Assembly: GCF_000455285.1 (NCBI RefSeq)
Contig: NZ_HG005287.1
Location: 135,318 to 187,153 of the forward strand
Origin: Candidatus Stoquefichus massiliensis AP9
GTDB taxonomy: Bacteria; Bacillota_I; Bacilli_A; Erysipelotrichales; Coprobacillaceae
DNA: 51,836 bases
Reading direction: 5' to 3'
The notes beneath the pieces were generated by a model. That model did no database searches, was not told where the DNA came from, and saw only the letters and a list, made by a program, of their open reading frames with translations. Below are positions 4,980 through 50,207 of this stretch, piece after piece (within the stretch, counting starts at the first letter, position 1; each line of letters starts with the position of its first letter). The position numbers were made by a program, and so were the translations under genes.

Positions 4980-5395
4980 TTATCCGTTAACTTCTGTTGC
5001 ACCTGTATGTATTGTATAATTAATAATCATTCGAGATAATCCGGTTACATCACTACCCTCAGCATATTCTGTCTTAAACCATGAAACTTTGCATAGTGGC
5101 CATTCCCAACTAAAATGATTTTCATAAGTCATACTTACAAATTTAGTCATTCCATTTGGATAATGTCTAAATGTGCCAATCCACCTTACATACCCAAACT
5201 GACTACCATCATCGTGAGTTATAGTATATGTCTCAGTCCCTCGGGGGTCTATTGACAACACTTTTTTAATATATCATCTGTATCATAAACATAGTCAATA
5301 GTCGTTTTTTCTAAAGCCTTTGTTGTTTTCATTGAAAATCCACAGATAAGTAATTGCATACAAAAAACAGTCATTATAATTATAATTTTTTTCAT
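4980..5395 (-). pseudogene. Small secreted protein, frameshifted in an A tract
   Basis: The reading frame starts at 5395 with an AGAGGA ribosome site. It encodes a signal peptide (MKKIIIIMTVFCMQLLICGF, cleavage probably after KTTKA) and stops after about 48 codons. The T6 tract at 5262-5267 (A6 on the coding strand) is the break. One extra A joins it to a second open frame ending at 4980, giving about 138 residues with a mature region rich in aromatic residues (FSWEWPLCKVSWF). I do not recognise the family. The two exporter fusions that follow suggest a secreted peptide or bacteriocin-like substrate, as in lactococcin-972-type loci, but the sequence does not show that family's signature. It could be a true null, a phase-variable gene or a sequencing error. 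The 5396-5661 region upstream shows only A/T-rich sequence. Confidence 0.65.
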
Positions 5396-5661
5396 AGATT
5401 TTCCTCTTTTCATATTTAATTTGATTTAGTATTTGTTATTTAAAAATAATCAGGTTAATTATCTTTAAATATTTTTACACAAAACTTATTTCATCCCTCC
5501 TAATCTCAATCAATTAAAGACAAAATCAAATTACTTTTTATATTATAATAAAATAGTAGATACATTCATATACTTCCTACTTATATTGTATTCTATATTT
5601 TATCCCTTATCAATAAATATCAATTTATCAATTTTATTTTTAAAATATATCTAAAAAAAAA

Positions 5662-43788: not shown

Positions 43789-44094
43789 TTATTTTATCTT
43801 CCACTGATGTTTCTTTAAATCAACATATCCCTCTTTTTTAAAAATTATTCCTTCATTTTCTAATAAACTTTGCTGATCTGTCCAACCCGGTACACAACGT
43901 CCACTTGCATTCACAACCCGATGACATGGGAAACGCCCATAATATTCTGATATACTTAAAACCTTACCTACAAGACGAGCATTTTTATCATGTCCACTTA
44001 ATTTTGCAATTTGTCCATATGTTGCTACAAAACCATATGGAATCTCTTCAACAACCGCTAAAATTTGAAATATAAAATCATTATTTAATACAAC
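43789..44094 (-). CDS. Alkyltransferase-like (MGMT-fold) protein
   Basis: A 101-residue protein of the MGMT DNA-binding domain family. It has IPYGFVATYGQIAKLSG, the helix-turn-helix NARLVGKVL, the active-site motif FPCHRVV with its Cys present, and the C-terminal VDLKKHQW. Small MGMT-like proteins of this size bind alkylated guanine and help nucleotide excision repair; those with Cys may also transfer the alkyl group. The start at 44094 is the best start, though its ribosome site is distant. Confidence 0.8.
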   Translation of the reverse strand, partial: VVLNNDFIFQILAVVEEIPYGFVATYGQIAKLSGHDKNARLVGKVLSISEYYGRFPCHRVVNASGRCVPGWTDQQSLLENEGIIFKKEGYVDLKKHQWKIK

Positions 44095-44119
44095 CATATT
44101 TATAGAGTTTTTCCTTTCT

Positions 44120-44617
44120 TTAAAATCGAACATTTCTTGATATCAACGCCTTTTCTTTTGAGTCATTGAATTTTTTATCAATTCCTCTTGCACAACCTGT
44201 TAAGTTCCTATGACTTCCAACAACACGATGATACGCTATAATAATTGATATAAGATTATGTCCTACTGCTTCATATATTGCTTGAGCAGACATCCTTAGT
44301 TTATGATATAAATCTGCAACTTCACGAGCAATTTTTCCATAAGTTATTACCTCTCCATAAGAAATTTGAGAAAGCATTTTCCAAATAATTTTTTAAAACT
44401 TAGTTTCCCTTAGAGCCAATCTATTATTGATGGATATTGTAAATCAAAATACTAATCTAACCAATGTTTTGTTTGTATAAGGATTGGTTGCTGATTATCA
44501 TATTTTATTTCTTTATGAATTGTACCTAAAAATACTTTGTCCTCCATACCACAATCCAATCAATGATTTTTCATCACTTACTATAAGTAATTATCCAATG
44601 GCTGATAAATACTCCAT
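44120..44617 (-). pseudogene. ogt: Decayed methylated-DNA-protein cysteine methyltransferase
   Basis: A full-length Ogt gene (166 codons if intact) in pieces. From ATG 44617 it reads MEYLSAIG, a TAA where Lys is normal, then LLIVSDEKSLIGLWYGGQ. A shifted frame then carries QPILIQTKHWLD. A further frame reads LALRETKF, a TAA where FQ is expected, and KIIWKMLSQISYGEVITYGKIA to 44120. The active site PCHR is AYHR, so the reactive Cys is lost. Ogt removes alkyl groups from O6-guanine. Only the fragment 44120-44377 remains open. Confidence 0.85.
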
Positions 44618-49832: not shown

Positions 49833-50207
49833 TCAATGAATGATATTTAATAAACCAAATGTCACAGCAAATATAATCATATAAATAAATCTTTGATAAG
49901 GCCGTTTTCCTTCCTCACGACTTTTTTTAATTTCATCTCGTCTTTTTCCTCCATAGATACAACTATTTCTTTATCAATTTGTATACGATATCTTTTTTTT
50001 CATAGCTTCTATATCTCCCATAATAAAAATATCAAGAGATATACCAAATAACTGACTTAAAAGAACATTACTATTAAGATCGGGATAACTTTTATCAGTT
50101 TCCTAATTCGATATAGTTTGTCTTGTTACAAAAACTTTATCAGCAAGTTCTTCTTGTGATCAATGTCTTTTATGTCTATATTTCTTAATTTGTTTTCCTA
50201 TTTTTAT
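49833..50207 (-). pseudogene. Decayed XRE-family regulator with membrane tail
   Basis: The minus strand reads KIGKQIKKYRHKRH, a TGA, SQEELADKVFVTRQTISN, a TAG, ETDKSYPDLNSNVLLSQLFGISLD: an XRE helix-turn-helix with the two invariant Trp (WSQEEL and SNWE) turned into stops (50160-50162, 50103-50105). The start is ATA at 50205-50207, 8 bases after AAGGAAG, so ATG was lost too. After about 49985 frameshifts follow; the end REEGKRPYQRF plus a hydrophobic stretch is a membrane tail ending at TGA 49833. Confidence 0.85.

Follow-up and report, generated by a model that had tools for sequence, protein, structure and literature searches.

In lactococcin 972-type loci (e.g., streptococcin B, scbABC), a small secreted protein of the Sec type is encoded upstream of ABC and membrane partners, and strains without the peptide that keep these partners are known, with some pneumococci lacking a functional lactococcin-972-like peptide yet retaining scbBC as a parallel to the locus described below (PMC11796350). 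MacB/FtsX-type transporters are characterized by an N-terminal ATPase, four transmembrane (TM) segments and a large outer domain, and programmed -1 frameshift signals, such as those of dnaX and the IS3 family, are built on a slippery heptamer with a hairpin downstream. An upstream Shine-Dalgarno sequence is also a frequent stimulator of frameshifting in bacteria.

The locus considered here was found in the window, i.e., the whole stretch of 51,836 nucleotides that was analysed (genome G000, contig C4:135318-187153; genome of 3.5 Mb in 24 contigs, GC 29%), and consists of an interrupted gene for a small secreted protein followed by two tandem ABC genes (ABC 1 and ABC 2), all on the reverse strand (Table 1). 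Like the lactococcin 972-type loci, it places a small protein of the Sec type upstream of its ABC partners, and the best NCBIfam family for both ABC proteins was L_ocin_972_ABC, although the scores of 140 and 106.5 bits were below the cut-off of 254.85. In contrast to these loci, the secreted protein gave no match to the lactococcin 972 family, two ATPase-permease fusions are present, and no lactococcin-type 7-TM immunity family was listed for the permease halves.

Table 1. Features of the secreted-protein locus, with positions counted from the first base of the window
Feature	Start	End	Strand	Basis or remark
ABC 2, ATPase and 4-TM FtsX permease fusion, 621 aa as listed	820	2685	-	Open; domain and TM analysis
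ABC 1, ATPase and 4-TM permease fusion, 658 aa	2586	4562	-	Open; domain and TM analysis
Possible degraded remnant of a second gene copy, VETYTITYGDKDFRYKTSIG	4644	4703	-	5/500 shuffles as good; tentative
Sigma-70-like promoter match, 11/12	4942	4970	-	3' of the broken gene and 5' of the ABC pair; consensus match only
Mature part, -1 frame, 93 aa (P0001)	4980	5261	-	ORF; G034 relative; all-beta model
Hairpin, -8.8 kcal/mol, 3 nt after the heptamer	5229	5257	-	Folding, shuffles
Zero-frame ORF, signal peptide and short pro-region, 48 aa, stop TAG	5249	5395	-	Sequence
Frame break, A6 run (5262-5267) and G, heptamer A_AAA_AAG in phase	5261	5267	-	Sequence
AGAGGA, ribosome binding site-like	5402	5407	-	Just 5' of the ATG at 5395; sequence

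Both ABC proteins showed an N-terminal ATPase followed by four TM segments that flank a large outer domain, and ABC_tran was matched in both, while FtsX was matched in ABC 2 just over the threshold (25.7 bits vs. a cut-off of 25.5) and was not listed for ABC 1, the permease half of which had no clear family match. As judged from this predicted architecture, the pair belongs to the MacB/FtsX-type ABC transporters, from which it differs in that two unlike fusions lie in tandem, in a genome of the Gram-positive type, and that the ABC 1 permease has no clear family. The true start of ABC 2 is probably the ATG at 2589, which overlaps the ABC 1 stop. Matches of the ABC proteins in PADLOC were dismissed as generic ATPase matches. 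A class-wide search with ABC 1 gave good matches confined to the same family, and a contig scan with the ABC alignment was drawn to generic ATPase motifs and yielded no useful neighbourhoods.

With regard to the other content of the window, 153 A/T runs of at least 6 nt were counted, 104 of them of exactly 6, and the coding strands of the 44 open genes carry 76 A-runs and 35 T-runs of at least 6 nt with their reading frames unbroken. An Ogt/MGMT-like gene (44168-44578, reverse strand), recognized by eye rather than by profile search, is decayed with several stops and frame changes, and a short, intact-looking ATL-like ORF (43789-44133) adjoins it. The remnant of an XRE-like regulator, likewise identified by eye and not by profile search, was located at 50013-50159 (reverse strand), with a TAG at the place of an expected tryptophan (QTISN*ETDKSYPDL).

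The sequence-only reading had placed the signal peptide and the mature part of the secreted protein in two frames one base apart at the A6 run, behind an intact ribosome site, and both statements were confirmed from the sequence. The zero-frame ORF translates as MKKIIIIMTVFCMQLLICGFSMKTTKALEKTTIDYVYDTDDILKKCCQ up to its stop codon and includes the hydrophobic segment IIIIMTVFCMQLLIC, while the second ORF, in the -1 frame relative to the first, translates as VLSIDPRGTETYT...TEVNG before its stop, the two frames meeting at the junction TTA AAA AAG TGT. As the frame is one base off in the A run, normal translation stops after 48 codons. Upstream of the gene, a structured leader was predicted at 5402-5540 on the reverse strand (-22.4 kcal/mol, z = -2.3), and no Rfam families were found in the region. 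The leader also contains an AGGAGG without a gene behind it.

A search for relatives beside the same ABC genes, as the sequence-only reading had proposed, recovered an uninterrupted ORF of 141 aa in G034, a genome of the same taxonomic family, lying directly upstream of a gene related to ABC 1 (L041:5509-5934). The part after the break aligned to this ORF with 31% identity over 90 columns (0/5,000 shuffles as good, z = 10), indicating that this frame originated as coding sequence, and the same gene order in G034 bears out the earlier view of a real secreted-protein gene linked to the ABC pair. This sole clear relative has neither an A tract nor a slippery heptamer at the equivalent place. The ABC partners of the G034 ORF (L041:5986-9770) are split into several ORFs, and this single-contig assembly might carry indel errors.

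Different small secreted ORFs precede such ABC genes at a second G034 locus and at one locus in G011, with no detectable similarity of either protein to the window protein, and a G007 protein was marginal in the same kind of comparison (43/5,000 shuffles as good). No convincing further relative was recovered for the peptide from viral contigs and 392 genomes drawn from the phylum, or for the G034 relative from plasmids. In the database searches, for which the read-through joined protein was used with an X at the junction, the peptide matched no bacteriocin family in Pfam or NCBIfam, with no match to PF09683 or the lactococcin 972 families at E up to 1 (Pfam) and up to 10 (NCBIfam), and PF09683 was also absent from the genome itself. 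In one of the alignments with the G034 relative and the possible second copy, and in the shuffle test of that copy, the two frames were instead joined directly, with no X, purely for comparison. The mature part was modelled as all-beta from the single sequence (pLDDT 79), and the fold search with this model gave no significant match, only weak beta-sandwich-like ones with Z <5, lactococcin 972 not being among the matches listed.

Many related ABC pairs were found without a secreted ORF upstream, including that of the genus-mate G001, in which the pair is kept (55% identity for ABC 1). The G001 locus also has, 5' of the pair, a Fic-like gene (L040:4347-5091) that is broken into two ORFs, which overlap and lie in different frames. 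LytTR response regulators, which are expected neighbours of peptide-regulated bacteriocin-like loci, adjoin related ABC pairs at four loci (L042, L045, L049, and L052).

Taken together, these results suggest that the gene is probably a bacteriocin-like gene that was inactivated recently while its partner ABC pair was retained. Such a loss is favoured because in the genus-mate the ABC pair persists with no secreted ORF upstream, because the window holds two other decayed genes, one of them with a nonsense codon, and, tentatively, because a decayed second copy of the gene (Table 1), compared with the two frames joined without an X, may lie nearby. It is further supported by the G034 relative, an unbroken gene immediately 5' of a related ABC gene, by the best scores of the ABC proteins against L_ocin_972_ABC, though below the cut-off, and by the LytTR neighbours of related pairs. 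Against it stand the single lesion, the single assembly and the absence of a bacteriocin family match for the peptide. Under this reading, the intact product would be a small, bacteriocin-like beta protein exported via Sec, with the ABC pair as its presumed immunity or release partner, most likely protecting the producer or aiding release. The frame shift of one base in the A run between the signal peptide and the mature part would then be a fixed mutation. The intact ABC genes might be expressed from their own promoter, as the promoter-like match upstream of them suggests that the pair could be expressed alone. Because only one lesion is visible, the gene would have been lost recently, and ribosomal slippage could still rescue it.

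Slippage itself, in which -1 frameshifting at A_AAA_AAG would let some of the ribosomes complete the secreted protein, whether the site evolved as a signal or rescues a damaged gene by leakage, is unlikely as the main explanation of the break. The in-phase heptamer, which the sequence-only reading had missed, has the right phase and direction, since a -1 slip there gives exactly the joined protein, and in Escherichia coli A_AAA_AAG ranks with the most slippery heptamers (PMC4066793). At -8.8 kcal/mol, the hairpin at the break is also stronger than anything at the other 8 A_AAA_AAG sites that lie in phase within genes of the window (-3.8 or weaker). It had z = -2.0, with 7/200 shuffles as good, and when 40-nt coding stretches of the window were ranked by folding energy it fell within the lowest 2.5%, values that are descriptive because they were computed once the site had already been seen. 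Moreover, the same heptamer occurs in a full cassette of an IS3-type element of this genome (L144:917-2283), where A_AAA_AAG lies at 1297-1303 and the fused frame is open over 326 codons. Upstream of it, ACAGGAGA pairs at -7.4 kcal/mol, and a hairpin of 9 bp (-13.4) follows after 6 nt.

The break shares the heptamer, its phase and the downstream hairpin with the programmed signals of dnaX and the IS3 family, but it differs in its weaker hairpin, in the absence of an upstream Shine-Dalgarno-like stimulator (+0.4 vs. -7.4 kcal/mol in the insertion element), and in a spacer of 3 nt where 5-8 nt are usual between heptamer and hairpin (PMC4066793). A dedicated AAG-reading tRNA is expected to slip less, as argued for Thermus, and this genome encodes tRNA-Lys(CUU) besides tRNA-Lys(UUU), so that less slipping on AAG would be expected here (PMC5009743). 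In addition, the uninterrupted gene in G034, which is one relative only, has no such site, and the heptamer would arise by itself through the loss of one A from the run. Some leaky full-length product is plausible from the sequence at the break, but the stronger version, in which the full secreted bacteriocin-like protein is made solely by -1 frameshifting between the signal peptide and the mature domain, with translation setting the dose, is very unlikely.

An assembly or sequencing error, with the gene in fact intact in the strain, would fit a single lesion of one base at a homopolymer in a single assembly with the rest of the gene intact. Homopolymer errors, however, do not appear to be common in the window, because 111 other coding-strand A/T runs of at least 6 nt leave their genes open, and the other pseudogenes of the window have stop codons that such errors do not explain; an error is thus quite unlikely. 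Homopolymer phase variation, proposed in the sequence-only reading, by which changes in run length would toggle the gene between active and silent states among the cells of a population, is highly improbable, since the position of a one-base break at a homopolymer between the signal peptide and the mature part, and the benefit that on/off states could bring to bacteriocin-like genes, are outweighed by the ordinariness of an A6 run among the 104 runs of exactly 6 in a window of 29% GC, by the lack of any A tract at the equivalent place in the G034 relative, and by the 11 A, for scale, of a gene with proven poly-A slippage (PMC4256274).

If the protein were made by -1 slippage, frameshifting would here serve a secreted effector, an unusual role for it. 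If, as we favour, the producer gene is dead and its ABC pair retained, this would be another strain that keeps bacteriocin-like partner genes after loss of the peptide, in a little-studied bacterial group, and the locus would point to a family, so far undescribed, in which small secreted beta proteins go together with ABC genes of the MacB type.
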